A stretch of DNA of 64,000 bases, from NCBI GenBank assembly GCA_035192965.1, contig CP136571.1, forward strand, positions 3,738,501 through 3,802,500. The letters are read 5' to 3'. Below, one piece after another: positions 6,278 through 33,311 of the stretch (positions within the stretch are counted from its first letter, which is position 1; every line of letters starts with the position of its first letter). The position numbers and the translations under genes were made by a program. The notes below the pieces were generated by a model, which saw nothing but the letters and a program-made list of their open reading frames with translations, was not told where the DNA came from and did not search any database. The DNA is from Fuscovulum sp. (GTDB lineage: Bacteria; Pseudomonadota; Alphaproteobacteria; Rhodobacterales; Rhodobacteraceae).

Positions 6278-8698
6278 TCAGCCATGCAGGCCCAGATCAC
6301 GGGCGATGGTCCAGATCCGCCAGTGATCATGCGGCATGTGCGATTGCTTCAGGCCAAAGGGCCGGAACGCATCATGCACCGCGTTTGAAAAGGCCGGCAC
6401 CGACCCCACGTTCGGGCTCTCACCCACCCCTTTCGCCCCGATGGGGTGATGGGGCGACGGCGTTTCGGTGTGGTCGGTCGTGTAATGTGGCGTCTCCCAT
6501 GCGGTGGGCAGGAAGAAATCCATCAACGTCCCGGTCTTGACGTTGCCGATCTCATCATAGGCGATCTCCTGCCCCATCGCGATGGCATAGCCTTCTGTCG
6601 CCCCGCCATGCACCTGCCCCTCGATAACCATCGGGTTGATCCGGGTGCCGCAATCGTCCAGCGCATAGAACTGCCGCACCTCATGCTCGCCCGTGTCGAC
6701 GTCAATCTCCATCACGGCGATATAGGCCCCGAAAGGATAGGTCATGTTCGGCGGGTCATAGTAGGACACCGCTTCCAGCCCCGGCTCGATGCCCGGAATG
6801 GCCTGATTATAGGCGGCATAGGCCAGCTCCTTCATGGTCTTGAACCGCTCCGGTGCGCCTTTCACCTGAAACCGGTCCACATCCCACTCCAGATCGCCCT
6901 CATGCACCTCCAGCAACCACGCCGCGATCATCTGCGCCTTGGCCCGGATCTTGCGCCCACACAGCGCGGTCGCCGCCCCTGCAACGGGCGTCGACCGGCT
7001 GCCATAGGTGCCAAGGCCATAGGGGGCCGTATCGGTATCGCCCTCCTCCACCGTGATGCTGTCCGCGCTCAACCCGATCTCGCTGGCAATGATCTGGGCA
7101 AAGGTCGTGGCATGCCCCTGCCCCTGCGAAATCGTCCCCAGCCGCGCGATGGCAGAACCCGTCGGATGAATTCGGATTTCGCAACTGTCGAACATCCCCA
7201 TGCCAAGGATGTCGCAGTTCTTCACCGGCCCCGCCCCCACGATTTCCGTGAAATGCGTCAGCCCGATCCCGATCAACTTGCGCGTCTTTCCCGCCTTGAA
7301 ATCCGCCAGCCGCTGCGCCTGCTCGGCCCGCAACCCCTTGTAATCCACCGCCTCCAGCGCCTTGTCCCAGGCGGTGTGATAATCGCCCGAGTCATATTCC
7401 CAGCCCAGCGCCGACTGATAGGGGAACTGATCCTTGCGGATGAAGTTGATCCGCCGCAATTCGGCGGCATCCATGTTCAACTCAATCGCCAGAACCTCGA
7501 TCATCCGTTCGATGAAATAGGCGGCCTCCGTCACCCGGAAGGAACAGCGATAGGCAACCCCACCGGGGGCCTTGTTGGTATAGACGCCATCCACGCCGAC
7601 ATAGGCCACCGGAATGTCATAGCTGCCCGTGCAGATGCTGAAGAACCCGGCCGGAAACTTCGTCGGGTCCGCACAGGCATCGAACGCCCCGTGATCGGCC
7701 GTTACATGGCAATGCAACGCGGTGATCTTGCCCTCTTTCGTGGCACTGATCCGCCCTTTCATCCAATAGTCACGCGCGAATGCCGTGGCCATCAGGTTGT
7801 CCATCCGGTCTTCGACCCACTTCACCGGCTTGCCCGTGACGATAGAGGCGACGATGGCACAGACATAGCCGGGGTAAACCCCCACCTTGTTGCCGAACCC
7901 GCCGCCAATATCGGGGGAAACCACACGAATATTGTGCTCCTCGATCCCCGACAAAAGCGAGGCAACGGTCCGAACCACATGCGGCGCTTGGAACGTGCCC
8001 CAGACGGTCAGCTTGCCGTTCACCTTGTCCATGCTGGCCACGCAGCCGCAGGTTTCCAGCGGGCAGGGATGCGTGCGGTGGTAATAGACCATCTCTTCGG
8101 CCACCACTTCAGACGCCTCAAGCGCCTGATCGGTTGCCTCCTTGTCGCCCACCTCCCACAGGAAGATGTGGTTGTGGTGCTTGCGCGGCCCATGCGCGCC
8201 CGACGTTTGCCCTGCCAGATCCTCGCGCAGCACCGCAGCACCAGGTTCCAGCGCCTTGAACGGGTCCACGATCACCGGCAGTTCTTCGTAATCCACTTCC
8301 ACCAGTTCGATGGCATCGGCGGCGATATAGCGGTCGGTCGCCACCACAAAGGCCACTTCCTGCCCTTGGAACAACACCTTGCCATCGGCCAGCACCATCT
8401 GCTTGTCACCCGCCAGCGTCGGCATCCAATGCAGGTTCAGCGGCGCAAGGTCCGCCGCCGTCAGCACCGCCACCACACCGGGCAACGCCCGCGCCGCATC
8501 AGCATTGATGGATTTCACCCGCGCATGGGCATAGGGGCTGCGGACGAAATCCCCAAACAGCATCCCTGCCATCTTGATGTCGTCGACATAGTTCCCCTTG
8601 CCTTGGGTAAAGCGCACATCCTCTACCCGCTTGCGGCTGGAACCCAGACCCTTGAGATTGGCGATCCGTTCTTCGCGGTTTGGCGTCAGGTCGTTCAT
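6278..8698 (-). CDS. coxL: Aerobic CO dehydrogenase large (molybdenum) subunit, form I
   Basis: Catalytic subunit of Mo-Cu CO dehydrogenase, oxidising CO with water to CO2 and passing electrons through CoxS and CoxM to the respiratory chain. At 806 residues it matches the family length of about 809. The diagnostic form I active-site loop AYRCSFR is at residues 382-388, with the copper-ligating Cys at 385; form II homologues have AYRGAGR instead. A conserved GAKGVGES block near the C-terminus carries the catalytic Glu. The true start is ATG 8698, overlapping the coxS stop by 4 bp; the same frame is open further upstream inside coxS, but the protein family begins at [12 protein letters not shown]. 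Confidence 0.96.
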
Positions 8699-17336: not shown

Positions 17337-18593
17337 ATGCGCCGCGCCACCGCTGCCCTGCTTCTGTGCACCGCACTCACCACACCCGCCTTCGCCGCCG
17401 ATCCTGCCGACGTTGTCGCCACCTATGCCGACATCGCCGCCGCAGCCTATGGCGACAGCCTGACCACCGCGCAGGCCCTGCAATCCGCCGTCGCCACCCT
17501 CATCGCCACACCTTCGGAATCCGGCCTCACCGCCGCCCGAAGCGCTTGGCTCGCCGCACGCGTCCCCTATCAACAGACCGAGGTGTTCCGCTTCGGCAAC
17601 CCTATCGTCGATGATTGGGAAGGCAAGGTGAACGCCTGGCCGCTCGACGAAGGGCTGATCGACTATGTCGCCACCGGTTACGGGCTGAACGAGGAAAATA
17701 CCCTCTCGCAACTCAACATCATCGCCACGCCGAAATTCACCCTCTCCGGGTCTGACATCGACGCCACCACCATCACCCCGGCCCTGATCGCCGACACCCT
17801 GCACGAGGCGGACGGGATCGAGGCCAACGTCGCCTCTGGCTATCATGCCATCGAGTTTCTGCTCTGGGGGCAAGATCTGAACGGCACCGAACCCGGCGCG
17901 GGCAACCGCCCCTACACCGATTTCCTGCAAGGCGAAGGCTGCACCGGCGGCAACTGCGACCGCCGCGCCGCCTATCTTGCCGCCGCAACCGATCTGCTGG
18001 TGTCCGATCTGGAATACATGGCCGCCGCCTGGGCTCCGGGTGGTGACGGCCGCGCAACTGTGACCGCCGATCCGCAAGCCGGGCTTCTGGCCATGCTCAC
18101 CGGCATGGGCAGCCTGTCCTATGGCGAACAGGCGGGTGAGCGGATGAAACTCGGCCTGATGCTGAACGATCCCGAAGAAGAACATGACTGCTTCTCCGAC
18201 AACACCCACAACAGCCACTTCTACGATGGCCTCGGCATCCGCAACGTATACCTCGGCAGCTATACACGCGTAGATGGCAGCATCGTCTCCGGCCCCGCGC
18301 TGGCGGATCTGGTCGCCGCAGTTGACCCCGTCGTCGACGCGCGCCTGCAGACGGAACTCAACGCCTCCATCGACGCGCTTCAGGCCATCAAGTCCGCCGC
18401 CGAAGGGGGCCTCGCCTATGACCAGATGCTTGCCCCCGGCAATACCGAGGGCGAGGCGCTGATCACCGCCGCCATCGATGCGCTGGTCACGCAAACCGCC
18501 TCAATCGACCGCGCGGTCACCGCCCTTGGCCTGTCGCAGATCAGCTTCGAAGGCTCCGACAGCCTCGATAATCCCGGCGCCGTCTTCCAGTAA
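17337..18593 (+). CDS. Imelysin-family (M75/IrpA-like) periplasmic protein
   Basis: A 418-residue secreted protein with a Sec signal peptide (MRRATAALLLCTALTTPAFA, cleavage after AFA). Two helical imelysin repeats follow. The conserved GxHxxE metal site reads GYHAIEFLLWGQD near residue 164. A Cys-containing region (GEGCTGGNCDRR) and the HDCFSDNTHNSHFYDGLG block match the IrpA subgroup of iron-regulated imelysins. It is the first gene of a four-gene periplasmic cluster and probably binds ferric iron or presents it for uptake. No peptidase activity should be assumed despite the M75 name. Confidence 0.9.
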   Translation: MRRATAALLLCTALTTPAFAADPADVVATYADIAAAAYGDSLTTAQALQSAVATLIATPSESGLTAARSAWLAARVPYQQTEVFRFGNPIVDDWEGKVNAWPLDEGLIDYVATGYGLNEENTLSQLNIIATPKFTLSGSDIDATTITPALIADTLHEADGIEANVASGYHAIEFLLWGQDLNGTEPGAGNRPYTDFLQGEGCTGGNCDRRAAYLAAATDLLVSDLEYMAAAWAPGGDGRATVTADPQAGLLAMLTGMGSLSYGEQAGERMKLGLMLNDPEEEHDCFSDNTHNSHFYDGLGIRNVYLGSYTRVDGSIVSGPALADLVAAVDPVVDARLQTELNASIDALQAIKSAAEGGLAYDQMLAPGNTEGEALITAAIDALVTQTASIDRAVTALGLSQISFEGSDSLDNPGAVFQ

Positions 18594-18670
18594 CGCCAAC
18601 CCGGCGCGCGGCCCCATCGCGGCTGCGCGCCCATCCCCTGCCCACGCCCACAGGGCGAAAGACCCCAGTC

Positions 18671-20173
18671 ATGCTCCGCCCCTTCCTGCTCGCCCTGCTG
18701 ATCTCTGGCCCCGCTTTGGCACTGGACGATCCGCACCTCTCCACCCTCCCCCGCACCGCAGCCGAATCCGCCCGCATCAAGGCGATCCTCGCCCCACCCA
18801 CCGATTTCACCGAAGCCGAACCGTTTGAGGCGCTCTCTGCCGGGGCCGCCACCGTTCGTGCCCGCACCACCACGGATGCTTTCAGCCAATCCTCGGCCAA
18901 TATGCCCTTCGATCATGAAATGCGCTTCAAGCTGGGCAATGCGCTGTTTCGCAAGACATGGGTCGCGTCCCCCGCCTCCACCCTCGCCTCCGATGGCCTC
19001 GGCCCGCTCTACAACGCCCGCGCCTGTCAGGATTGCCACCTCAAGGATGGCCGCGGCCACACGCCCGAAGGCCCCGGTGACAGCCGCGTCTCCCTGTTCC
19101 TGCGTCTGTCTGTCCCTGCCAAGACAGGCCCCGCCGATATAGAAGAATGGCTCGCCACCGCACCAGACCCCACCTATGGCGGCCAGTTGCAGGATTTCGC
19201 CGCCCCCGGCCAAGCCGCCGAAGGGCGGATGGACATCACCTATACCGACCTGCCCGTCCCCCTCGCCGATGGCACCGTCATCACCCTGCGCCAGCCCAGC
19301 TATGCCCTCGCCGATCCCGCCTACGGCCCACCCGACCCCGGCCTGATGCTCTCCCCCCGCGTCGCGCCACAGATGATCGGCCTTGGCCTGCTCGAGGCGA
19401 TCCCCGCCGCCGGTATCCTCGCCCTTGCCGATCCTGATGATGCCAATGGCGATGGCATCTCGGGCCGCCCGCAGATCGTGCCCTCCACCGAATACGCCAC
19501 CCCCATGCTCGGCCGCTTCGGCCTCAAGGCCGGCGCTCCCACCGTGCGTGACCAATCCTCCGCCGCCTTTGCGGGCGACATGGGCCTGTCCACACCCCTC
19601 CACCCCGATCCCTGGGGCGATTGCACCCCGGCCCAAGGCGAATGTCGCGCCGCCCGCCACGGGCAGGAACCCGGCATCCGCGACGGGCTGGAGGTCGAGG
19701 CCGAAAGCCTCGACCTCGTCACCTTCTATGCCCGCAACCTTGGCGTCCCGGAACGCCGCCGCGTGGATGATCCGCAAGTCCTGCGCGGCAAGGCGCTGTT
19801 CCACACGCTCACCTGCGCCGCCTGCCATACCCCCAAACACGTCACCCACCGCCTGACCGATCAGCCCGAGCAAAGTTTTCAGCTGATCTGGCCCTATACC
19901 GATCTCCTGCTCCACGACATGGGCGAAGCCCTCGCCGACAACCGCCCCGAAGGCCGCGCCTCGGGGCGCGAGTGGAAAACCCCGCCGCTTTGGGGCATCG
20001 GCCTGACCGAACAGGTCAGCGGCCACACCCAATTCCTGCACGATGGCCGCGCCCGCACCCTGCTCGAGGCGATCCTCTGGCACGGGGGCGAGGCGCAGGC
20101 CGCCCGCGATGCCACCATCGCCCTGCCCGCCGATGACCGCGATGCCCTCATCGCCTTTCTGGAAAGCCTCTGA
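18671..20173 (+). CDS. Di-heme oxidoreductase (DHOR, putative peroxidase-like c-type cytochrome)
   Basis: A 500-residue periplasmic protein with a signal peptide (LLALLISGPALA) and two c-type heme sites, CQDCH near residue 119 and CAACH near residue 382. Length and motif spacing fit the di-haem oxidoreductase family commonly found between two imelysins. It may oxidise or reduce iron bound by the neighbours, which is inference. Its stop overlaps the next ATG (TGATG). Confidence 0.88.
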   Translation: MLRPFLLALLISGPALALDDPHLSTLPRTAAESARIKAILAPPTDFTEAEPFEALSAGAATVRARTTTDAFSQSSANMPFDHEMRFKLGNALFRKTWVASPASTLASDGLGPLYNARACQDCHLKDGRGHTPEGPGDSRVSLFLRLSVPAKTGPADIEEWLATAPDPTYGGQLQDFAAPGQAAEGRMDITYTDLPVPLADGTVITLRQPSYALADPAYGPPDPGLMLSPRVAPQMIGLGLLEAIPAAGILALADPDDANGDGISGRPQIVPSTEYATPMLGRFGLKAGAPTVRDQSSAAFAGDMGLSTPLHPDPWGDCTPAQGECRAARHGQEPGIRDGLEVEAESLDLVTFYARNLGVPERRRVDDPQVLRGKALFHTLTCAACHTPKHVTHRLTDQPEQSFQLIWPYTDLLLHDMGEALADNRPEGRASGREWKTPPLWGIGLTEQVSGHTQFLHDGRARTLLEAILWHGGEAQAARDATIALPADDRDALIAFLESL

Positions 20174-21159
20174 TGCCCCGCACATGCTTCGGCCTCACCT
20201 TCACGCTGGCCCTGATCCTCTCGCCGCTCAGCGCGCGCGCCGATGTGGCCGAGGTGGTCCAGCACCATATCTTGCCCGGCTACACGGCACTGGCCAGCGC
20301 CGCCGCCACGCTGGACGCAACCGCCCAACAGGATTGCACCCCCGCCACCCTGACCCCCGCCTTCCACACCACCTTTGACGCCTGGATGGCTGTCCAGCAC
20401 CTCCATCTCGGCCCGGTCGAGGAAGAGGGGCGCGGTCTTGCCACCGCCTTCTGGCCCGATCCCAAAGGTCGCGGCCTCGCCGCGCAAAGCGCCATCCTTG
20501 CCAACGACCCTGCCACCCTCACCCCCGACAACTTCGCCGATCAATCCATCGCCGCACGCGGCCTGATGGCGCTGGAACGCCTCCTCTATCCTGACGCCTC
20601 GCTGCAAGGCGACACGTGCGCCCTGATCCGCCTGACCACCGCCGATCTGGCCCGCACCACCGCCGATATCGCAACCCTGTGGCAACAGGGCTTTGCCACC
20701 AGCCTCACCAGCGCAGGCCAACCCGGAAACACCCGCTTTCTGTCGCAGGCCGAGGCGCGTCAGGCCTTGCTCACCCAACTCACCACGGGCCTCGAACACC
20801 TCGCCGACCAACGCATCGCCCGCCCCATGGGCAGCTTCGACAAACCCCGCCCCGATCTGGCCGAGGCCCGCGCCTCCGGCCGCAGCCTGCGCAACATCAC
20901 CCTGTCGCTGCACGCCCTGCGCGACCTTTCGGCCACCCTGTCGCCCGACACGACAGCCCCCCTCGCCGCCATCGACACTGCGCTTGCAAAGGCCGCAGCG
21001 CTGGATGACCCCATCCTCGCCGGGACCGCCGATCCCGCCGCGCGCCTGCGGATCGAAATCCTTCAGCACTCCATCCGCGCGGCCCGTGACTCGGTGGTGG
21101 CAGCCCTTCCCCCCGCCCTCGGCGTGGGCATCGGATTCAATGCGCTGGACGGGGATTGA
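20173..21159 (+). CDS. Second imelysin-family periplasmic protein, divergent metal site
   Basis: A 328-residue secreted protein (signal peptide ending SPLSARA). The helical imelysin fold is recognisable by position, by HILPGYTALASAA at the N-terminus and by the C-terminal IGFNALDGD. Where IrpA-type proteins have GxHxxE, this one reads RGLMALERLLYPD, so the His is absent and only the Glu remains. It may be a structural or receptor partner of the first imelysin. Translation is coupled to the preceding di-heme gene (TGATG). Confidence 0.82.
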   Translation: MPRTCFGLTFTLALILSPLSARADVAEVVQHHILPGYTALASAAATLDATAQQDCTPATLTPAFHTTFDAWMAVQHLHLGPVEEEGRGLATAFWPDPKGRGLAAQSAILANDPATLTPDNFADQSIAARGLMALERLLYPDASLQGDTCALIRLTTADLARTTADIATLWQQGFATSLTSAGQPGNTRFLSQAEARQALLTQLTTGLEHLADQRIARPMGSFDKPRPDLAEARASGRSLRNITLSLHALRDLSATLSPDTTAPLAAIDTALAKAAALDDPILAGTADPAARLRIEILQHSIRAARDSVVAALPPALGVGIGFNALDGD

Positions 21160-21161
21160 CC

Positions 21162-22235
21162 ATGACCTCCCGCCGTTCCGTCCTCGCAGGCCTCGCCGCA
21201 CTTTGCCTGCCCGCGCCAAGCTGGGCCGATGTGGGCAATCCCCGCTTCCTCGCCGCCGCAAAACAAGGAGATGGCTACTTCCTCCACGGCCTCACCGCCA
21301 AAGGGGAAAGCCTGTTCTCGCTTCCGCTGCCTGCGCGCGGCCATGCCGCCACCGCCCATCCCCACCGCCCCCTCGCCGTGGCCTTCGCCCGCCGCCCCGG
21401 CGTGTTTGCTCTGGTGATCGACTGCCGCGATGGCCGCCTGCTGCACCGCCTCACCCCGCCCGATGGCCGCCAATTCAACGGCCACGGCACATTTTCCGCC
21501 GATGGCACGATCCTTTATACGTCAGAAGTCATCGCCGAAACCTCGCAGGGGCGCATCGGCCTTTGGGACACGAACCGCTTCACCCGCATCGGAGAATGGA
21601 CTTCGGGCGGGATTGGCCCGCATGACATGAAACGTCTTCCCGACGGCCGCCTCGTCATCGCCAATGGCGGCATCGTCACCGATCCGCGCGACCGGACCAA
21701 GCTGAACATCCCCGACATGCGCCCGAACCTGACCCTGCTCGACACCCATGGCAAACCGCTGGACGTGGCCGAACTGGACCCCACGCTGAACTGCAACTCC
21801 ATCCGCCACCTTGCCCTGACGCAAACGGGCAGCATCGCCTTCGCCATGCAATGGGAAGGCGACACGACAGAGGCTGTCCCCCTCCTCGGCCTCTGGACCC
21901 CCGGCGCAACCCCCACCCTTTGCGCCGTACCGGAACCCGAATCCCTGCGGATGCAGGGCTATGCCGGATCCATCGCCGTGGCGGAGAGCGGCCACATCGC
22001 CATCACCTCACCGCGCGGCGGGTTGGTGCAGGTTTTCGCCGCCGATGGCCGCTTCCTCGCCAGCCAAACGCGCCAGGATGTCTGCGGCATTGCCGCCCTG
22101 CCCGGCGGCGGCTTTCTGGCCAGCGACGGGATGGGCGCGCTCCTGCGCCTGACGGTCAAGGGCGACACCATCCAGACCACCGCCCTGCACAGCCATCCCC
22201 TTGCCTGGGACAACCACCTCGTCACCCTGACCTGA
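21162..22235 (+). CDS. DUF1513 periplasmic protein, Tat-type signal
   Basis: A 357-residue protein with a twin-arginine-like leader (TSRRSVLAGLAALCLPAPSWA), suggesting export folded with a cofactor. The remainder looks like a beta-propeller, with repeated short strand motifs (GTILYTSEV, GRIGLWD, GHIAITSPRGG) and conserved NGHGTFS and GPHDMKRLPDGRLVIANGG. DUF1513 proteins regularly end imelysin-DHOR clusters, and their biochemical role is not known to me. I chose ATG 21162, 2 nt after the preceding stop, over the overlapping TTG 21156. Confidence 0.88.
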   Translation: MTSRRSVLAGLAALCLPAPSWADVGNPRFLAAAKQGDGYFLHGLTAKGESLFSLPLPARGHAATAHPHRPLAVAFARRPGVFALVIDCRDGRLLHRLTPPDGRQFNGHGTFSADGTILYTSEVIAETSQGRIGLWDTNRFTRIGEWTSGGIGPHDMKRLPDGRLVIANGGIVTDPRDRTKLNIPDMRPNLTLLDTHGKPLDVAELDPTLNCNSIRHLALTQTGSIAFAMQWEGDTTEAVPLLGLWTPGATPTLCAVPEPESLRMQGYAGSIAVAESGHIAITSPRGGLVQVFAADGRFLASQTRQDVCGIAALPGGGFLASDGMGALLRLTVKGDTIQTTALHSHPLAWDNHLVTLT

Positions 22236-23447: not shown

Positions 23448-25544
23448 TCAGGCGTTCAGATCCTGCAGCAGACGGCCATGTTTGCGCACCTCGGTCAGCA
23501 CCTCGTCAAAGGTGCCGATCTTGCGCCCGCGCAGCATGGTCAGCATCTTGAGGAATGCATCCGCCGTCGCCACCGCATCGCCCAGCGCGGTGTGGCGCGC
23601 CTCCTCGGATATGGTGATGCCCAGCCGATGCGTCAGCGCATCAAGTGAATGTTCCTCATGCTGGCTGAACACCACCGCTGACAGCAGAACCGTATCCAGA
23701 ATGGGCATGTCGAACCGCTTGCCGATGGCAGGCTCGGCCCGGCGTAAAAATGCCATGTCGAAAGGCGCATTATGCGCCACCAGCACTGCCCCTTCGGCAA
23801 AACGGTGGAACCGTGCCAAGGCCTCGGTCACCTTCGGCGCGTCGGCCACCATGGCATCGGATATGCCATGCACGGCAGTTGATGCCGCCGGGATCGTTCG
23901 CCCCGGATGAACCAGCGTGTTGAACACCTCGCCCTCCACCCGCCGCCCGTTCACGATCCGCACAGCGGCGATCTGCACCACCTCATCGCCCTGCTGCGGC
24001 ATCAGCCCGGTGGTTTCCGTGTCGAACACCACATAGGTCAGTTGATCCAACCGGCTGTTCAGCACAGCCCCGCGCCGTTCCTGCCCCAGCAGATCGAAAT
24101 CATAGGTCACCCGCCGCGCCACCGGCTCGGGCCGCTTCACCGACCGCCGCGCCTGCAGGATCGGCAGGCACAGCGCCTCTAGCCCGCCTTCCATCACTTC
24201 GGGCCAGATATCCGTGGCATGTTCCGCCAAAAAGCTGCGCCCCGTCGCCTCGGGCAAACTTGCGTCCAGCGGCAGGTCCAGAACCCGCTCCAGCGCGGCC
24301 ATGGTCAGCGGTGCGCCTTTCCAGACGATGCGCAGCGATGCCCCGCCAAATTCCTCATCCAGCCGCAGCGTCAGCCGCGTCACCCCCGCCATCCGCGCAA
24401 TCTCGTGGCACAACACCCCGGTGAACCCCACCAACTCATAGGCATTGCAGCCGATCATCAGCGCCGATGGCGCAATCTCGACCGTCAGCCCTGCGCCCTC
24501 GACCCGCGCCTTGATGCTGTCCAGCACATCCTCGCCCCGCAGCATCGTATAGGGCAGCGTTTCAGGCCGCCGCTCCTGATTGGCGCGCGCAATCTCCTGC
24601 ACCATGGCCACGAGGGCCACCACTTCCGCATCCAGCGCCGCCACCAGCGCTGCATCGCCCCCCTCGCTCGCCGCTTCGCGGATCGTGGCGATCCCCGCCA
24701 CCGACCGGCTGATCCGCTCCAACGCCTCGGCGATGAACGCCTCACGCCGCGCCGACACGGCGAAATCCTGCGTCACATCGCGCAGGGTCAGCACATAGCC
24801 CGGCGCATCGCCCTCGCCTGCCAACAGACGCATCCGCCCTGCCAGCAGCGCCCGCCCCTGCACCGGCGTGCAGATCAGGTCTGATGCCGCATCCGCCGCG
24901 CCCGTCTCCACCAGCCGCTGATAGGCATCCTGCAACGGCCCCTCGCGCAGATAGCCGAACACGCTGCGCGCCAGCCCTGGCTGATGGGCAAGGTCCAACC
25001 CGCCTGCCCCCCCGCCTGCCCCCAAGAACTCGGCCGCCTGACTGTTATAGAAGACAAGCTGATGATCGCCCGCGCAGATCATCACCCCCACCGGCACATC
25101 CGACAGCAGCCGCTCCAGCCGCGCCTTTTCCGCCGTCAGCCGCGCCGTCTCGCGCCCGATCGCCTCGGCCAGCGCGCTGCGCGTCTCGGCCAGCCGGTCC
25201 GATGCCGCCCCCGCAGCCGGGGCCAGATCACCCAGATAGCGCGCCACCTCCATCTCCAGCGGGCGGTCCACATCCGAATGCGCCCGCGCCCGCAGCGCCC
25301 CTGCCAACAGGTCGATGGGCCGCGCCACGTTCTTGTCAAAAAGGAACCAGACCCAGGCGATCAGGCCCAGACTGCCGAACCCCGCCACCGTGGCAATCTG
25401 CACCAACCCGTTCGACTGTTCCGCCAGTTCCGGGAACCGCGTCAGCGCCAGCCAGACCCCCGCCCCGATCGCCAAAAGAGACCCCACAGCCAGCAGCGCA
25501 AAAAACAGCAGAATGCGCAGCCGCAGGCTCGCCCGGGCGATCAC
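23448..25544 (-). CDS. Membrane PAS/kinase-like sensor fused to a DEDDh 3'-5' exonuclease
   Basis: A 698-residue multidomain protein. Two N-terminal membrane helices (about 8-35 and 48-68) are followed by a HAMP-like helix and a PAS domain (about 145-265, VPVGVMICAGDHQLVFYNSQ). A long helical/ATPase-like region (about 270-480) has no clear phospho-acceptor His. The C-terminal RNase T/DnaQ-like exonuclease (about 505-675) has the full catalytic set: VFDTETTG, HNAPFD and HTALGDA. It is last in an operon after a response regulator (ATGA overlap). The family is known next to DUF294/SSS genes, but substrate and signal are not known to me. Confidence 0.85.
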   Translation of the reverse strand: MIARASLRLRILLFFALLAVGSLLAIGAGVWLALTRFPELAEQSNGLVQIATVAGFGSLGLIAWVWFLFDKNVARPIDLLAGALRARAHSDVDRPLEMEVARYLGDLAPAAGAASDRLAETRSALAEAIGRETARLTAEKARLERLLSDVPVGVMICAGDHQLVFYNSQAAEFLGAGGGAGGLDLAHQPGLARSVFGYLREGPLQDAYQRLVETGAADAASDLICTPVQGRALLAGRMRLLAGEGDAPGYVLTLRDVTQDFAVSARREAFIAEALERISRSVAGIATIREAASEGGDAALVAALDAEVVALVAMVQEIARANQERRPETLPYTMLRGEDVLDSIKARVEGAGLTVEIAPSALMIGCNAYELVGFTGVLCHEIARMAGVTRLTLRLDEEFGGASLRIVWKGAPLTMAALERVLDLPLDASLPEATGRSFLAEHATDIWPEVMEGGLEALCLPILQARRSVKRPEPVARRVTYDFDLLGQERRGAVLNSRLDQLTYVVFDTETTGLMPQQGDEVVQIAAVRIVNGRRVEGEVFNTLVHPGRTIPAASTAVHGISDAMVADAPKVTEALARFHRFAEGAVLVAHNAPFDMAFLRRAEPAIGKRFDMPILDTVLLSAVVFSQHEEHSLDALTHRLGITISEEARHTALGDAVATADAFLKMLTMLRGRKIGTFDEVLTEVRKHGRLLQDLNA

Positions 25545-25936
25545 ATCGGCGCCCCCCCATCCACGATCCGCCGTATCTCGCCCCGCAACGTGCCCAAATC
25601 GAACGGTTTGGTCACAAAACCATCCGCCCCCAGCGCCATCGCCTTGCGCTTTTCCAACGCCGACCCGCGCGCCGTCATCATCACCACCTTCACGTCATGC
25701 AGCGACGGATCCAGCCGGATCTCCTGACAGATCTCATAGCCCGATACAGACGGCAGCATGATATCCAGCAACACCACCTCCGGGTGACGACTGCGGATGA
25801 AAGGCAGCGCCTCCGCCCCGTCAGCCACCCGCGCGTGGCCATAGCCTTCGCGCTTCACCACATATTCCAGCGCGATGGCGATGTTGTCCTCATCTTCCAC
25901 GATCAGGACAAGCGGTTCTCTCTTCCTGTCTGTCAT
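25541..25936 (-). CDS. Single-domain response regulator
   Basis: A 131-residue CheY-like receiver without an output domain. Acidic pocket LVLIVEDEDN, phospho-acceptor Asp in VVLLDIMLPSVSG (near residue 57), switch Thr in MMTARG and conserved Lys in VTKPFD are all present. The start ATG 25936 overlaps the upstream gene by 4 bp, and its stop overlaps the exonuclease-sensor start by 4 bp. It is probably regulated by that sensor and acts by protein contact. Confidence 0.9.
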   Translation of the reverse strand: MTDRKREPLVLIVEDEDNIAIALEYVVKREGYGHARVADGAEALPFIRSRHPEVVLLDIMLPSVSGYEICQEIRLDPSLHDVKVVMMTARGSALEKRKAMALGADGFVTKPFDLGTLRGEIRRIVDGGAPM

Positions 25937-26460
25937 CCACCTGCCCTCCGGCACGCCACCATCCCCGTCTGGTCTTCCGGCAGCAAGGGCACCCATTCGC
26001 CCCCTTCCAGCACGCCAGCATCCGTGATCTTCATTTCGGTCGTCATCCGCACTGACCGTTGGCCCGCGCAATCCACCGCCACCGTCCACTGCTCCACCCC
26101 GCGCCAGCGGGCAAAGCCATAGGCATTGGCAAGGATCAGGTCCGCATTGCCCGGATGCGCCAGCATCTGCCGCGTATCCAGCGCCACGAACCGCGTCACC
26201 AGGGGCACCGCCATCGTCCAGGGCCGCAGCGCCTGCGGCCGATCATCCGCCCAGACCACCGCCACACCCTCGGGCAGGCCCGCCGACAGACGCCCATACC
26301 AGCTATACTCGCTCCAGGCCGTATAGCTGATCAGCCCCAGCGCCGCCGCCGCAGGCATGATCCAGGCCGGCAGCCGGTTGCGCGACAGCCTGCGCAGGAT
26401 CATCGCGATCCCCGCACAGGCAATGGCTGCGACAATCGCTGCGATCAGTTCAAGACCCAT
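25933..26460 (-). CDS. Hypothetical membrane-anchored protein
   Basis: A 175-residue protein with an N-terminal helix (LELIAAIVAAIACAGIAMIL), a second hydrophobic segment (AWIMPAAAALGLISYTAWS) and a soluble C-terminal domain (residues about 55-175) with two late cysteines. I recognise no domain. It is coupled to the response regulator by an ATGA overlap and starts 12 nt after the DUF294 gene, so it belongs to the same operon. Confidence 0.75.
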   Translation of the reverse strand: MGLELIAAIVAAIACAGIAMILRRLSRNRLPAWIMPAAAALGLISYTAWSEYSWYGRLSAGLPEGVAVVWADDRPQALRPWTMAVPLVTRFVALDTRQMLAHPGNADLILANAYGFARWRGVEQWTVAVDCAGQRSVRMTTEMKITDAGVLEGGEWVPLLPEDQTGMVACRRAGG

Positions 26461-26472
26461 AACCTGCCTACC

Positions 26473-28296
26473 TCAACTTCTGGCGCCGCGGGATTGTCCC
26501 ACGGCAGATTGCATTGTCCGTACAACGACAAAGGCGTCGCGCAAATGAGACCGTTCGAAATCCGACATTTCCGAAAGCGACAGGAAATTGTCCGGCTTCT
26601 CTCCCCCGCGCACCTGCCGCGCCTGATGCTCCAGCCTCGTCCGCGCGATCAGGTCATACGCCTCGATCAGATCCCGCGCACCCGATGCCGAAATCACCCC
26701 CGCCGCCTCGGCCGCTTCCAGCCGCGCGCGCGTATTGGCCGGGGCCAGCCGCCCGATCAGCGCATAGACCCGCGCCAGATCGGCCACCGGCACCACGCCC
26801 TGATGCTTCATGTCGATATGGTTCTTGTGCTCGCCCGACCGGATGGTCGCAAACCCCCGCAACAGCCCCAAAGGCGGCGCATGTTTCAGCGAATTCTGGA
26901 TCATATGCGCCACGAAGATCGAGTTCTTCGCCGCCAGCGCCAATGTCTCATCCTGCAAGGCACGGTAGAGCGCGGGCTCCCCCCCGATGGGCCGCAGATC
27001 GAACATCACCGATGCCAGCATCTGCGCCGTCGGATCGGGCCGCGCCACCCATCCCGCGAAATATTCCCGCCACACCCGCACCGGCTGGCACCAGCGCGGA
27101 TTGGTCGCCATCATGTCACCGGGGCAATAGACATACCCACAGGCATCCAGCCCGTCAGACACGAACTTCGCCAAAGCGGTGAACCAGGGTATGTCCGCCT
27201 CTGTCACCTCATCCGACAGAATCATGCAATTGTCCTGATCCGACACCCCGGTCTGCTCTTGCCGCCCCTGCGATCCGCAAGCCAGCCACAGATAGGGCAC
27301 CGGTGCCGGGCCAAGGCTTTGCTCGCCCAGCCACAACAACCGCCGCGTCACCGTATCGGCAATATCGGTGATCAGCCGCGTCACCACCTCATGCGCGTTA
27401 TGCGCCCCCACCAACTGCGCCAGCAGCCGCGGGATCCGCGCCGTCACCGCCGCCAGCTGCGCCACATCCGTGGCCATCGCCGCATCGCGCACGAACTGCG
27501 CCGATGACACCGCCTGAAACCGCGTCAGATCGGTCTGCGTCACCATCCCCACCAGCGCGCCATTCTCGACCACCGGCAGATGTCCGATGCGCCGCTCCAG
27601 CATGATATGCAGCACATCCGACCCCAGCGCCGAAGGCGGCAGCGTCACCGGATCGCGCGTCATCACCGCACCCACCGCCGTCTCGGGTGACATCCCCTCG
27701 GCCAGCACCTTGTTGGTGAAATCCCGCACCGTGACCAGCCCGGCAAAGCGCCCCTCCTCGGTCACCCCAAGGCTGGAGACACGGTTATCCCGCATCACCT
27801 CTGCCGCCGCCCGGATCGAAAGCGTGGCCGGCACCGTGAACGGCTCATGCGCCATCAGGCTGGCCACCTTCTGCGCCGTCAGATCGGCCTCGCGATGCTC
27901 CGCCCCGCGCCCACGCTGAAAGAACCGCTCAAAGGATGGGAACTCCGCGATCATCCGCCGGAACTCCGCCACCGGCAGCATCAGCAGCACGCTGTCCTGC
28001 GTCGCCCGCGCCGTCGTCACCGCCAGCCCGCTGCGCATCAACCCGCGCTCACCGAAACTGTTGCGCGGTCCCAGCAGCGACACGATCCCGCCCGACGGCT
28101 CCAGCACCTCTACCGCGCCGCGCTTTACCAGAAACAGGCCCCGCAGCGGCTCGCCCGCATGATAGACCTCTTCGCCCGCGGCATATTCCCTGCGGCTGAA
28201 GGAACCGGCGACACGCGCCAGTTCGTCCTGCGGCAGGCCATCATAAGGATGCACCGTCTCCAGAAAGGCGATGATGGTCGTCAGCCCCTCATCCAT
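26473..28296 (-). CDS. cNMP-binding / CBS-pair / DUF294 nucleotidyltransferase-like protein
   Basis: A 607-residue cytoplasmic signalling protein. A cyclic-nucleotide-binding domain (about 15-130, YAAGEEVYHAGEPLRGLFLV) precedes two CBS motifs (about 150-270, DNRVSSLGVTEEG and RIGHLPVVENG). DUF294 follows (about 295-440, ACGSQGRQEQTGVSDQDNC, with the GSxGRxExxxxSDxD nucleotidyltransferase signature). DUF294-C ends the protein. It resembles GlnD-like nucleotidyltransferases and may modify or gate the acetate symporter next door. It starts 34 nt after the actP terminator hairpin. Confidence 0.9.
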   Translation of the reverse strand: MDEGLTTIIAFLETVHPYDGLPQDELARVAGSFSRREYAAGEEVYHAGEPLRGLFLVKRGAVEVLEPSGGIVSLLGPRNSFGERGLMRSGLAVTTARATQDSVLLMLPVAEFRRMIAEFPSFERFFQRGRGAEHREADLTAQKVASLMAHEPFTVPATLSIRAAAEVMRDNRVSSLGVTEEGRFAGLVTVRDFTNKVLAEGMSPETAVGAVMTRDPVTLPPSALGSDVLHIMLERRIGHLPVVENGALVGMVTQTDLTRFQAVSSAQFVRDAAMATDVAQLAAVTARIPRLLAQLVGAHNAHEVVTRLITDIADTVTRRLLWLGEQSLGPAPVPYLWLACGSQGRQEQTGVSDQDNCMILSDEVTEADIPWFTALAKFVSDGLDACGYVYCPGDMMATNPRWCQPVRVWREYFAGWVARPDPTAQMLASVMFDLRPIGGEPALYRALQDETLALAAKNSIFVAHMIQNSLKHAPPLGLLRGFATIRSGEHKNHIDMKHQGVVPVADLARVYALIGRLAPANTRARLEAAEAAGVISASGARDLIEAYDLIARTRLEHQARQVRGGEKPDNFLSLSEMSDFERSHLRDAFVVVRTMQSAVGQSRGARS

Positions 28297-28369: not shown

Positions 28370-30322
28370 TTAGTGGGCCTGCGCCGCACCGGCACCTTTC
28401 GGCACGCGGATCGACTGGATCAGGTCCTGCACGTCCTGCGGCGGGGCTTTGGTCATCGAAGACACGACATAAGCCACCACAAAGTTCAGCAGGGCGCCGA
28501 TCGGACCAAAGGCCGCGGGCGAGATGCCCAGCCAATGAGCGTCCGGCGTGTTCGGGAACATGTTCGTGCCGGGGATGAAGAACCAGCCCAGGTAGAGGAA
28601 GATGTAGACCGCGGTCGAAATCAGACCGACCAGCATGCCGAGGATTGCACCTTCCTTGGTCACTTTGGTGGAGAAGATCCCCATCATCAGCACCGGGAAG
28701 ATCGTCGCAGCCGCCAGACCGAAGGCCAGAGCCACCACCTGCGCGGCAAAGCCGGGCGGGTCCAGACCAAGCCAGGTCGCCAGCACGATGGCAAAGGCCA
28801 TCGAAATCCGCGCGGCCAGAAGCTCGCCCTTTTCGCTGATCTTCGGGTTCAAGGCACCCTTGATCAGGTCGTGGCTGATTGCCGACGAAATCGCCAGCAG
28901 CAGACCTGCTGCCGTCGACAGCGCGGCGGCAAGACCACCGGCAGCAACAAGCGCGATCACCCAGCCCGGAAGCTTTGCAATTTCCGGATTGGCCAGAACC
29001 ATGATGTCGTTGTTCACCGTGGTCAGTTCGTTGCCGACGAGGCCCTGTGCGGCCAGCGTCTGCCCGTTTAGGCCGTTGGCCGGATCGGCAAGCGCAGCGT
29101 CGAGTGCCGTCTTGGCTTCAGCGACCTTGGCTTCCAGTGCAGCCTTGTCGGCATCTGCCGGAGCGTCAGCCAACGCCTTGCTCGCATCGGCCATTGCCTT
29201 GTTGGCCGCCGCGAGTGCCGGCTTTTCGTTGAAGTACTGGATCAGCCCGTCGCCGTTCTTGTCCGAGAACGCCAGCAGACCGGTCTTTTCCCAGTTACGA
29301 ATCCAGGCCAGTTCCGGGTTGCTGTCGATTTCAGCAATTGAAAGCGCCGGAGCACTGAACGTGTCGCCTGCAATCGCACCCGGCCAGAAGGTCGTGGTGA
29401 TGTTCAGACGCGCCATCGAACCCACAGCCGGAGCCACGGTGTAAAGCAGCGCGATGAACACCAGTGCCCAACCCGCAGACAGACGCGCATCCGACACTTT
29501 CGGCACGGTGAAGAAGCGGATGATGACGTGCGGCAGACCTGCCGTACCGATCATCAGCGACAGCGTGACAAGGAACATGTTGAACATGTTCGGCGTGTCG
29601 GCGGTATAGGCCGCAAAGCCCAGATCCGTCACCACCTGATCAAGCTTGGTCAGGAAGGCAACATCGCCACCGGTCGGCGCGTAGCCACCGATCAGGCCAA
29701 GCTGCGGCAGGAAGTTGCCCGTCAGTTGCAGCGAGATGAACAGCGCCGGGATCGTATAGGCGATGATCAGCACGACATACTGCGCCACCTGCGTATAGGT
29801 GATGCCCTTCATGCCGCCGAACACTGCATAGGCGAACACAACGGCCGAACCGATCAGCAGGCCCTGCGTCGTGGTCACTTCCAGGAAGCGCGCAAAGGTC
29901 ACGCCCACGCCCACCATCTGCCCGATAACATAGGTGATCGAGATCACCAGAAGGCAGACCACGGCCACCATGCGGGCCGAGGTGGAATAGAAGCGATCAC
30001 CCACGAATTCCGGCACAGTGAACTTGCCGAACTTGCGCAGGTAAGGCGCCAGAAGCAGTGCCAGAAGCACATAGCCGCCGGTCCAGCCCATCAGGAAGAC
30101 CGAGTTGCCGTAGCCCCCGAAGGCGATCAGACCCGCCATCGAGATGAACGAAGCCGCCGACATCCAGTCAGCCGCCGTCGCCATGCCGTTGACCACCGGG
30201 CCAACGCCTTGGCCCGCTGCATAGAATTCCGCCGTCGAACCGGCGCGTGCCCAGAAGGCGATCCCGAAATACAGCGCGAAAGACGCACCGATGACGAGAA
30301 GGTTAAGGGTAAACTGATCCAT
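28370..30322 (-). CDS. actP: Sodium:solute (acetate) symporter, VC_2705/ActP type, with soluble insertion
   Basis: A 650-residue SSS-family transporter with about 13 membrane helices; the family is usually about 550-590 residues. Typical motifs are AADWMSAASFISMAGLIAF and GTAGLPHVIIRFF. Between two helices lies an extra segment at about residues 345-430. It contains DKNGDGLIQYFNE, resembling an EF-hand loop, and a long Ala/Lys/Asp-rich helix (ALAAANKAMADASKALADAP and onward). With DUF4212 8 nt upstream and acs at the head of the cluster, acetate or another short monocarboxylate is the likely substrate. ActP as a symbol is provisional. Confidence 0.88.
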   Translation of the reverse strand: MDQFTLNLLVIGASFALYFGIAFWARAGSTAEFYAAGQGVGPVVNGMATAADWMSAASFISMAGLIAFGGYGNSVFLMGWTGGYVLLALLLAPYLRKFGKFTVPEFVGDRFYSTSARMVAVVCLLVISITYVIGQMVGVGVTFARFLEVTTTQGLLIGSAVVFAYAVFGGMKGITYTQVAQYVVLIIAYTIPALFISLQLTGNFLPQLGLIGGYAPTGGDVAFLTKLDQVVTDLGFAAYTADTPNMFNMFLVTLSLMIGTAGLPHVIIRFFTVPKVSDARLSAGWALVFIALLYTVAPAVGSMARLNITTTFWPGAIAGDTFSAPALSIAEIDSNPELAWIRNWEKTGLLAFSDKNGDGLIQYFNEKPALAAANKAMADASKALADAPADADKAALEAKVAEAKTALDAALADPANGLNGQTLAAQGLVGNELTTVNNDIMVLANPEIAKLPGWVIALVAAGGLAAALSTAAGLLLAISSAISHDLIKGALNPKISEKGELLAARISMAFAIVLATWLGLDPPGFAAQVVALAFGLAAATIFPVLMMGIFSTKVTKEGAILGMLVGLISTAVYIFLYLGWFFIPGTNMFPNTPDAHWLGISPAAFGPIGALLNFVVAYVVSSMTKAPPQDVQDLIQSIRVPKGAGAAQAH

Positions 30323-30330
30323 TTTCCCGC

Positions 30331-30588
30331 TTACTCCTCAACGCCATGTTCTTTGTCGAGCTTGTTCATCTTTGCCGCATAGGCAAAAATCAGCACGAGA
30401 AAGACGTAAATTGCCCCGTTCTGCGCCATCCAGAATCCAAGATCGGCACCGCCGACACTGATCCCCGAAAGCGCAGGACGAAGAATGATGCCCATCCCGA
30501 AGGAACACACGAACCAGATCACCATCGAAATCACGATGACCCGGATGTTCGCGGCCCAATAGGCGTTGGACGATGTCTTGTCCGCCAT
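30331..30588 (-). CDS. DUF4212 small subunit of the SSS symporter
   Basis: An 85-residue protein with two membrane helices (about residues 14-36 and 52-74). The NAYWAANIRVI and SFGMGIIL blocks are typical of DUF4212, which always precedes VC_2705-type SSS transporters. It is presumed to be an accessory subunit. The start is ATG 30588 with AGGGAG about 9 nt upstream. The stop lies 8 nt before the transporter ATG. Confidence 0.92.
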   Translation of the reverse strand: MADKTSSNAYWAANIRVIVISMVIWFVCSFGMGIILRPALSGISVGGADLGFWMAQNGAIYVFLVLIFAYAAKMNKLDKEHGVEE

Positions 30589-30660: not shown

Positions 30661-31329
30661 TTACGCCGATACCCGTGTCACGATGGCCGAAAGCGCCGCA
30701 CGGATCGCCGCGATGGAACCCATCGCATCGACCCGTTGCAGCACGCCCTGCCCCTCGTAATGGGCGATCAACGGTGCCGTCTGGGCGTGATAGGCTTGCA
30801 GCCGTTCCCGCACCGTTTCGGCATTGTCGTCAGCCCGGCGCTTGAACGCCGTGCCGCCGCATTTGTCACAAGCACCCGCCACCGCAGGCCGCTTGAATTC
30901 GTCATGATAGCCTTCGCCGCAGGCCGCGCAGGTGAACCGCCCCGCGACCCGGCCGACCATGGCCTCGTCATCCACCTCAAGGCTGACCGCTGCCGTCACC
31001 TTCTGGCCTGCCGCTTCCAGCAACCCATCCAGCGCCGCCGCCTGCCCCGCCGTGCGCGGAAACCCGTCCAGTATGATGCCCTTGGCCACATCGGGCGCCG
31101 CCATGCGGTCCTTCAGCACCGCCAGCACGATGTCATCGGAAACCAGTTGCCCCGCTTCCATCACCGCCTTCGCCTGACGCCCAGCCTCCGTGCCCGCCGC
31201 CACCGCCGCGCGCAACAGATCGCCCGTGGACAACTGGACCAGACCAAAGTCCTCTTCCAGCATCCGCGCCTGTGTGCCCTTGCCGGCCCCCGGAGGGCCC
31301 AGCAAGATCAGCACAGCAGGTTTGGTCAT
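30661..31329 (-). CDS. adk: Adenylate kinase with Cys4 LID, in the acetate operon
   Basis: A 222-residue adenylate kinase. The P-loop is GPPGAGKGTQ (about residues 10-19), the AMP-binding segment is STGDLLRAAV, and LDGFPRT is present. The LID carries four cysteines (CAACGEGYH, then CDKCGG), implying a bound zinc or iron ion as in Paracoccus Adk. The start is ATG 31329, 17 nt after the acs stop. It would convert the AMP released by Acs back to ADP. In relatives adk normally sits in the secY ribosomal operon, so this may be a second copy. Confidence 0.92.
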   Translation of the reverse strand: MTKPAVLILLGPPGAGKGTQARMLEEDFGLVQLSTGDLLRAAVAAGTEAGRQAKAVMEAGQLVSDDIVLAVLKDRMAAPDVAKGIILDGFPRTAGQAAALDGLLEAAGQKVTAAVSLEVDDEAMVGRVAGRFTCAACGEGYHDEFKRPAVAGACDKCGGTAFKRRADDNAETVRERLQAYHAQTAPLIAHYEGQGVLQRVDAMGSIAAIRAALSAIVTRVSA

Positions 31330-31346
31330 CACCTCGGACACCGCCC

Positions 31347-33311
<1,965 letters not shown>

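Follow-up and report, generated by a model that had tools for sequence, protein, structure and literature searches.

In a 64,000-nucleotide stretch of the Fuscovulum sp. genome (contig CP136571.1, positions 3,738,501 to 3,802,500; hereafter the window), we found a gene cluster in which a lone receiver gene adjoins the gene for a fusion protein. This single polypeptide joins membrane helices, a PAS-like region and a degenerate histidine kinase to a predicted DEDDh 3'-5' exonuclease, and it is encoded beside genes for acetate activation. We hold with moderate confidence that the fusion is a membrane-anchored exonuclease under the control of two-component signalling: a transporter-type kinase would act on the receiver, the receiver on the pseudokinase and the pseudokinase on the exonuclease. 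The receiver gene adjoins only fusions that keep a full DHp-like segment, and outside the window's family (Rhodobacteraceae) a CbrA/CrbS-like histidine kinase is commonly encoded next door. An initial annotation, made from the letters alone, had suggested a signalling chain ending in a nuclease; co-occurrence, intact DEDDh residues and the kinase linkage elsewhere support that suggestion, although the receiver is not universal.

The fusion protein and its degenerate kinase

The fusion and receiver genes lie at the end of an eight-gene row on the minus strand, in the order acs, adk, DUF4212, symporter, cNMP-CBS-CBS-DUF294 protein, small membrane protein, lone receiver and fusion. Their features are:

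23448..25544, minus strand: membrane-PAS-pseudo-histidine-kinase-DEDDh exonuclease fusion (698 amino acids, GTG start; conserved in relatives)
24765..25124, minus strand: PAS-like region, fusion residues 141-260 (weak Pfam PAS_8 match and AlphaFold model; present in long and short forms)
24555..24764, minus strand: DHp-like segment, fusion residues 261-330 (profile alignment to 4i5s and fold matches; H-box His replaced by Glu276)
24120..24554, minus strand: CA-like (degenerate HATPase) region, fusion residues 331-475 (profile, model and fold matches)
23541..24038, minus strand: predicted DEDDh 3'-5' exonuclease domain, fusion residues 503-668 (RNase_T, PF00929, E=1.3e-38 over residues 505-664; D508, E510, D596, H651, D656)
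25541..25936, minus strand: lone receiver protein, 132 amino acids (Response_reg, PF00072, E=1e-25; phospho-Asp and Lys present)

The nuclease domain scored 133.5 bits against RNase_T, for which the cut-off is 24. All five catalytic residues were present in 142 of 145 fusion proteins, in keeping with the earlier description of the nuclease as fully equipped. In the three exceptions the frame stops short of the last three residues; they comprise two genes with split frames (L102 and L140) and one that ends with the available stretch (L204). Every fusion whose nuclease domain is complete keeps all the catalytic residues. The fusion is predicted to carry a DEDDh exonuclease that looks intact.

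The region ahead of the nuclease had been described as kinase-like without an obvious phospho-His, and this description proved apt. Pfam listed neither HisKA nor HATPase_c for the window fusion at E values up to 1, gave PAS_8 a weak match (3.1e-4, slightly below the family cut-off), and among eight relatives tested placed HATPase_c in one, below cut-off (E=0.15). Yet a profile of 26 relatives (residues 137-480) matched complete PAS-DHp-CA kinases of the PDB, namely 4i5s (CovS/VicK; E=1.1e-12) and 3a0r (ThkA; 1.3e-11). In the alignment to 4i5s, the His of the VicK HELRTP motif falls on an Asp/Glu column of the fusions, and the ATP-binding boxes are degenerate: Trp stands in place of the Asp of G1, and no alignment is obtained over the G2 region.

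His never occupies the phosphoacceptor position in the 86 full DHp-like segments, full meaning that 56 or more residues align to residues 262-330. The position is Asp in 37, Glu in 36, Ala in 4, Arg in 2 and one each of seven others, an acidic residue thus occupying the former His position in 73 of the 86. The rest of the H-box is kept in some fusions, such as TRELRAP in L149 and TMELRGA in L153, and its Arg is kept in 28 of 30 family members with a full DHp. When 145 fusions were scanned for H-box and G2-box patterns, a single match was returned, GSGIGL at offset 353 of L119, ahead of the expected G2.

AlphaFold modelled the fusion with a predicted local distance difference test score (pLDDT) of 83 and a predicted template modelling score (pTM) of 0.50. 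Foldseek matched this model to WalK (1e-16), VicK (9e-13), ThkA (1.5e-11) and DivL (4q20; 1.2e-8), as well as HK853. Because the global template modelling scores by query length were low (0.27-0.39), the sequence profile is stronger evidence than the fold for kinase likeness. Judged by profile and model together, the kinase-like part is a degenerate histidine kinase, in which the PAS-DHp-CA architecture is present and the phospho-His and ATP boxes are lost.

Receiver genes, linked kinases and cluster partners

A search with the DUF294 protein matched 71 of 149 family genomes at E values up to 1e-40. The fusion gene lay inside the cluster at 70 of the 71 loci, the exception being L084, where the available stretch runs into a contig end and a fusion gene is on another contig. 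The symporter was likewise found at 70 loci (L045 begins at a contig end), and acs at 56, some cut short, with the absences only partly checked. Named near relatives of the window's family are Gemmobacter, Rhodobacter and Frigidibacter, all of them Rhodobacteraceae, from which the family name is taken.

With the genome of L104, added for its long fusion, 71 family fusion proteins were compared. They fall into a long form of about 700 amino acids and a short form of about 470, which lacks nearly exactly the DHp-CA region. A receiver gene was present beside 29 of 30 fusions with a full DHp, none of the four in which the DHp-like segment is shortened and the CA-like region kept (L083, L087, L097 and L098), and none of the 37 in which both are gone. 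The sole full-DHp family fusion without a receiver is the divergent L103. Both the phospho-Asp and the Lys are kept in 29 of 29 family receivers. This natural variation points to docking of the receiver on the DHp-like segment, and the four shortened fusions would be natural intermediates useful for mapping the docking site.

The wider survey of named genomes took the best 80 loci of the 542 relatives listed, which is not an even sample. Together with the family and L119, it gave the 145 fusions classed above, and realignment moved one family protein from partial to none. A receiver was scored as an open reading frame of less than 400 amino acids on the same strand within 800 bases upstream, leaving 142 fusions once L182, L196 and L203, with too little upstream sequence, were set aside. 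Receivers adjoined 68 of the 84 fusions with a full DHp vs. 0 of the 58 without, and receiver and fusion reading frames overlapped by exactly 4 bases at 20 of these 68 loci. The pair occurs in isolates of Rhodobacter capsulatus, Ectothiorhodospira, Tepidicella, Hydrogenophaga, Azoarcus, Ramlibacter and Marinobacterium, and in metagenome bins labelled Acidobacteriota, Nitrospirota, Caldilineaceae and Magnetococcales, although bin labels can be wrong. The R. capsulatus locus, L136, has the long form of the fusion.

For linkage to a kinase, family and other loci were told apart by search labels and, if named, also by the title of their record; L141, whose title says Rhizobiales, was counted with the family on account of its gene order. 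At 21 of 25 receiver-bearing loci outside the family, a homologue of one CbrA/CrbS-like histidine kinase lies within 500 bases of the fusion. At the other four (L156, L158, L169 and L208), the kinase is not in the available stretch. Among 21 out-of-family loci scored receiver-less, the kinase was found at two, L144 and L193, both of which have receivers that the filter missed. The gene order is kinase-receiver-fusion or receiver-fusion-kinase, with kinase and receiver reading frames overlapping by exactly 4 bases at 6 of the 21 linked loci and at L104. The three-gene unit occurs under alpha-, beta- and gammaproteobacterial names and at single loci labelled Acidobacteriota and Caldilineaceae; a Nitrospirota-labelled locus has receiver and fusion, with the kinase not in the available stretch. 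One species with the three-gene unit is Ectothiorhodospira shaposhnikovii (L153).

The linked kinases are mostly about 900-1000 amino acids long, and H-box and G2-box patterns were present in all 21. Atypical members include L188, which is short, L175, which is split over two frames, and L177 and L198, which begin at the stretch edge. HisKA and HATPase_c were found in all eight linked kinases tested, and SSF in one of them (L172, 3.4e-06), of which the other seven are homologues. Against one of two query members, the full-length proteins show 52-74% identity, and the kinase part of L188 shows 45%. Identity of about 35% is seen with three proteins of about 1150 amino acids that lie beside stand-alone exonucleases (L121, L123 and L132), over roughly their first 650 residues. 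L121 and L132, the two of these that were scanned, contain PAS, HisKA, HATPase_c and receiver domains. We base the CbrA/CrbS likeness on homology among the linked kinases, the single SSF match and this identity of about 35%. In kinases of the CbrA/CrbS type, an SLC5/SSF transporter domain is joined by a STAC domain. In the two receivers scanned, those of the window and of L104 (121 amino acids), only PF00072 passed its cut-off, and the other receivers were judged by the length of their reading frames.

An unlinked kinase homologue was matched in 133 of 149 family genomes, a count that includes the linked one of G023. In the window's genome, the homologue lies at about 2.77 Mb, about 1 Mb from the cluster, and is 43% identical to the L104 kinase; here the kinase would act in trans, with this homologue as the candidate donor. 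It occupies L217:5257-7944, with a second lone receiver at 8210-8611, and a ScfRs-type regulator lies upstream.

The other genes of the cluster are:

25933..26460, minus strand: small membrane protein (two long N-terminal helices and a beta domain with two invariant Cys; kept in cluster)
26473..28296, minus strand: cNMP-binding, two-CBS, DUF294 nucleotidyltransferase-like and DUF294_C protein (cNMP_binding 2.6e-17; CBS 8e-28, in two stretches; DUF294 6e-46; DUF294_C 3.8e-45; GSQGR.EQ....SDQD-type motif)
28370..30322, minus strand: sodium/solute symporter, VC_2705 family (TIGR03648, 791.9 bits)
30331..30588, minus strand: symporter small subunit, DUF4212 (family matches)
30661..31350, minus strand: adenylate kinase, adk, one of two in the genome (family matches)
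31347..33311, minus strand: acetyl-CoA synthetase, acs (TIGR02188, 1020.8 bits)

The initial annotation had placed four of these open reading frames, from the fusion to the DUF294 protein, and reading-frame and Pfam checks found all four where it had put them on the minus strand; the cluster reaches beyond them to the symporter, DUF4212, adk and acs. Four-base overlaps, ATGA at 25936-25933 between membrane protein and receiver and GTGA at 25544-25541 between receiver and fusion, make the translational coupling that it had claimed plausible. Given the gene spacing and conservation, the cluster is probably one operon. The arrangement is neither an artefact nor ordinary.

The small membrane protein matched no Pfam family above cut-off. 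Its model (pLDDT 95.5) has two long N-terminal helices and a beta domain, and the fold found no significant match in the PDB (best E 0.1; none at or below 0.001). The helices were judged hydrophobic by eye, and the membrane helices of the fusion were also read in this way. Two Cys are invariant across 25 sequences of this protein, which stays in the cluster with or without the receiver. Within the SSF region of the symporter, at about residues 365-420 as judged by eye, is an insert of roughly 55 residues in which Ala, Lys and Asp abound; several relatives are of similarly greater length, about 640-680 amino acids, and most others are near 595. The cluster adenylate kinase may recycle the AMP made by Acs. 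Outside the cluster, imelysin, di-haem oxidoreductase, imelysin and DUF1513 genes lie in a row on the plus strand at 17337-22235 of the window.

From 98 out-of-family genomes with a DUF294 match we picked 28 loci, mostly the better-scoring ones, 26 of them outside the class by search labels. A stand-alone DEDDh exonuclease, mostly of about 230 amino acids, follows DUF294 at 24 of the 28; L119 has the fused form with a receiver, and L105, L120 and L130 have no exonuclease.

A proposed signalling chain and its alternatives

In the proposed chain, a transporter-type histidine kinase (CbrA/CrbS-like) would sense or carry a small carboxylate and phosphorylate the lone receiver. The phosphorylated receiver would dock on the DHp-like helices of the fusion, whose pseudokinase, no longer a kinase, may still read the receiver. 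The resulting conformational change, together with input sensed by PAS, would turn the DEDDh nuclease on or off. The DUF294 protein, with cNMP and CBS nucleotide-sensing domains of its own, is probably a counter-enzyme or co-regulator acting on the same 3' ends; its role is the least certain part of the mechanism. Assimilation of acetate or pyruvate would in this way be tuned post-transcriptionally, and the short fusions may be PAS-only versions that dropped receiver control.

A physiological role of this kind is consistent with work on Pseudomonas putida (PMC9927547). There, pp_0354 and pp_0353, encoding a CBS protein and an exonuclease, form an operon under MxtR/ErdR (CrbS/CrbR), with ErdR binding the promoter region, and a pp_0353 deletion mutant shows delayed growth on pyruvate. 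For the mechanism, mRNA degradation is a speculation of the authors, and homologues of the pair adjoin actP in P. aeruginosa (PMC9927547).

A broader form of this reading is tentative. The kinase, receiver and receiver-reading pseudokinase-exonuclease could be a widespread two-component form in which a transporter-kinase governs the nuclease directly and without a transcription factor, with DUF294 opposing the nuclease on the same 3' ends, such that carbon sensing would set the tailing and trimming of RNA.

Several observations weigh against the gated-exonuclease reading. The four genes first annotated are found together widely, but they are not a strict unit, as the receiver is missing beside 42 of 71 family fusion genes. 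In the whole set, 16 full-DHp fusions were scored without an adjacent receiver, although in L144 and L193 the filter missed one. The association between receiver and DHp is one-directional, yet not significant once corrected for relatedness, as few supported pairs are available. On the DUF294 tree of the family, which calls for a minimum of 5 changes in DHp and 6 in the receiver, three supported independent pairs gave a mean of 2.8 concordant and 0 discordant (median p 0.25). On the exonuclease-domain tree, five supported pairs gave a mean of 4.0 concordant and 0 discordant (median p 0.125), with 11 independent pairs if unsupported branches are counted. The trees were quick ones; the DUF294 tree has long branches at L103 and L104, and its two outgroup rows do not fall on one side. 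The uncorrected Fisher test (p 4e-19) ignores relatedness and overstates the link.

The kinase evidence is also uneven. Within the family, the kinase is linked at 1 of 43 receiver-bearing loci (L104), and a kinase inside the cluster was rejected as the arrangement of the window's family. The unlinked homologue is present in 29 of 29 receiver-bearing vs. 38 of 42 receiver-less family genomes, and is not specific to those with a receiver. In the window's genome, it adjoins a 133-amino-acid lone receiver of its own, 38% identical to the cluster receiver. The stand-alone nucleases form a long separate branch, and the tree does not establish their common descent with the fused ones. In P. putida, both pp_0353 and pp_0354 mutants grow normally on 20 mM acetate, and the pp_0354 mutant is normal on pyruvate too (PMC9927547).

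Another explanation, which we consider unlikely, is that the DUF294 protein and the DEDDh enzyme do not act on nucleic acids but write and erase a nucleotide mark on some protein such as the symporter or Acs, with the receiver and pseudokinase gating its removal. DUF294 pairs with two separate DEDDh branches, and 146 of 160 DUF294 proteins keep a GSxGRxE...SDxD-type motif, which we take to resemble the motifs of GlnD and GlnE. DUF294_C has been grouped with the C-terminal domains of GlnD and GlnE (PMC3710099), also in favour of the idea. Against it, no DEDDh enzyme is known to us to take a nucleotide off a protein. Moreover, growth of P. putida on pyruvate is affected by loss of the exonuclease and not by loss of the DUF294 protein, which does not suit a simple writer-eraser pair.

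Less probable still is that the receiver serves another partner, as a phosphate sink or with a target elsewhere, and that the pseudokinase is a mere linker whose linkage to the receiver is incidental. The family fusions and full-DHp proteins that lack an adjacent receiver would agree with this, as would the second lone receiver beside the kinase homologue in the window's genome. Incidental linkage would not lead one to expect, however, that a receiver adjoins none of the 58 proteins without a full DHp, including the four family fusions that shortened the DHp and kept the CA, nor the exact 4-base overlaps between receiver and fusion.

That acetyl phosphate itself charges the receiver, which would then report acetate flux with no kinase involved, is very improbable. 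The acetate-activation cluster holds no kinase and an acetate-kinase-family gene is present in the window's genome, but other lineages have a kinase next door. Acetate-kinase-family genes occur in 25 of 29 receiver-bearing vs. 34 of 42 other family genomes (p=0.75), and acetyl phosphate was rejected as a specific phosphodonor. The weakest explanation, a decaying relic of an old hybrid sensor that is shedding its kinase parts with no signalling left, would account for the 37 of 71 family fusions that lost the whole pseudokinase and for the others that lost part, but it sits poorly with the acidic residue kept at the His position, the retained H-box Arg, the nuclease domains that keep every catalytic residue, and the recurrence of the form with an adjacent receiver under several phylum names.

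In most bacterial two-component systems the output is transcription, second messengers or motility. If the gated-exonuclease reading is correct, a chain with an exonuclease in cis as its last member would link nutrient sensing directly to the turnover of RNA or nucleotides, and receiver-reading pseudokinases would have a second clear role besides that of DivL. The reading would also suggest a testable explanation for the presence of DUF294 proteins and exonucleases beside acetate genes in many Proteobacteria, a link on whose mechanism the P. putida study could only speculate (PMC9927547).

Comparison with known systems

Open-access literature was searched for related systems. We found no paper that combines DUF294, acetate and exonuclease, none that combines four of the five topics PAS domain, DEDDh, exonuclease domain, histidine kinase and acetate, no Ruegeria acetate RB-TnSeq study, and, by title and start of abstract among the papers listed, no description of a receiver-pseudokinase-exonuclease chain; as only open-access papers were covered, these negatives carry little weight. 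Nuclease, nucleotidyltransferase and synteny terms were also looked up in PMC9100948 and PMC5436829 and did not occur in the text available from either.

CbrA, CrbS and RpuS are histidine kinases with a symporter domain (PMC5715377, PMC9100948, PMC13022988). The linked kinases resemble them in their usual length, in HisKA and HATPase_c and, for one of the eight tested, in the SSF match. CrbR activates acs transcription (PMC5715377) and RpuS/R regulates mctP expression (PMC9100948). Whereas these partners regulate expression, the linked partner here is a receiver without an output domain, encoded beside a nuclease.

The P. putida pair shares with the window cluster a CBS protein followed by an RNase_T-family exonuclease and a tie to acetate and pyruvate use. 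It differs in that the excerpted text of PMC9927547 mentions no sensor, pseudokinase or receiver part for the pair. The stand-alone DEDDh enzymes sampled beside DUF294 are likewise a distinct branch, a sample to which pp_0353 itself does not belong. As for the nuclease, the fusion is like DnaQ and the PolC exonuclease domain (2p1j) in sequence family and in all five catalytic residues, but it is attached to a membrane sensor and pseudokinase, whereas the PolC/DnaQ type is attached to a polymerase.

The closest precedent for the proposed gating is Caulobacter DivL with its receiver DivK. DivL acts on the kinase CckA. The fusion resembles DivL in its PAS domain, in a DHp-CA fold without phospho-His and in a single-domain receiver as the likely input. 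In the DivK/DivL logic, kinase domains are repurposed to sense a phosphorylated receiver (PMC4211667). DivL keeps its other kinase boxes (PMC4211667), whereas the CA boxes of the fusion are degenerate; the usual replacement of the His is acidic in the fusion, rather than Tyr, and the output of the fusion would be a nuclease in the same chain.

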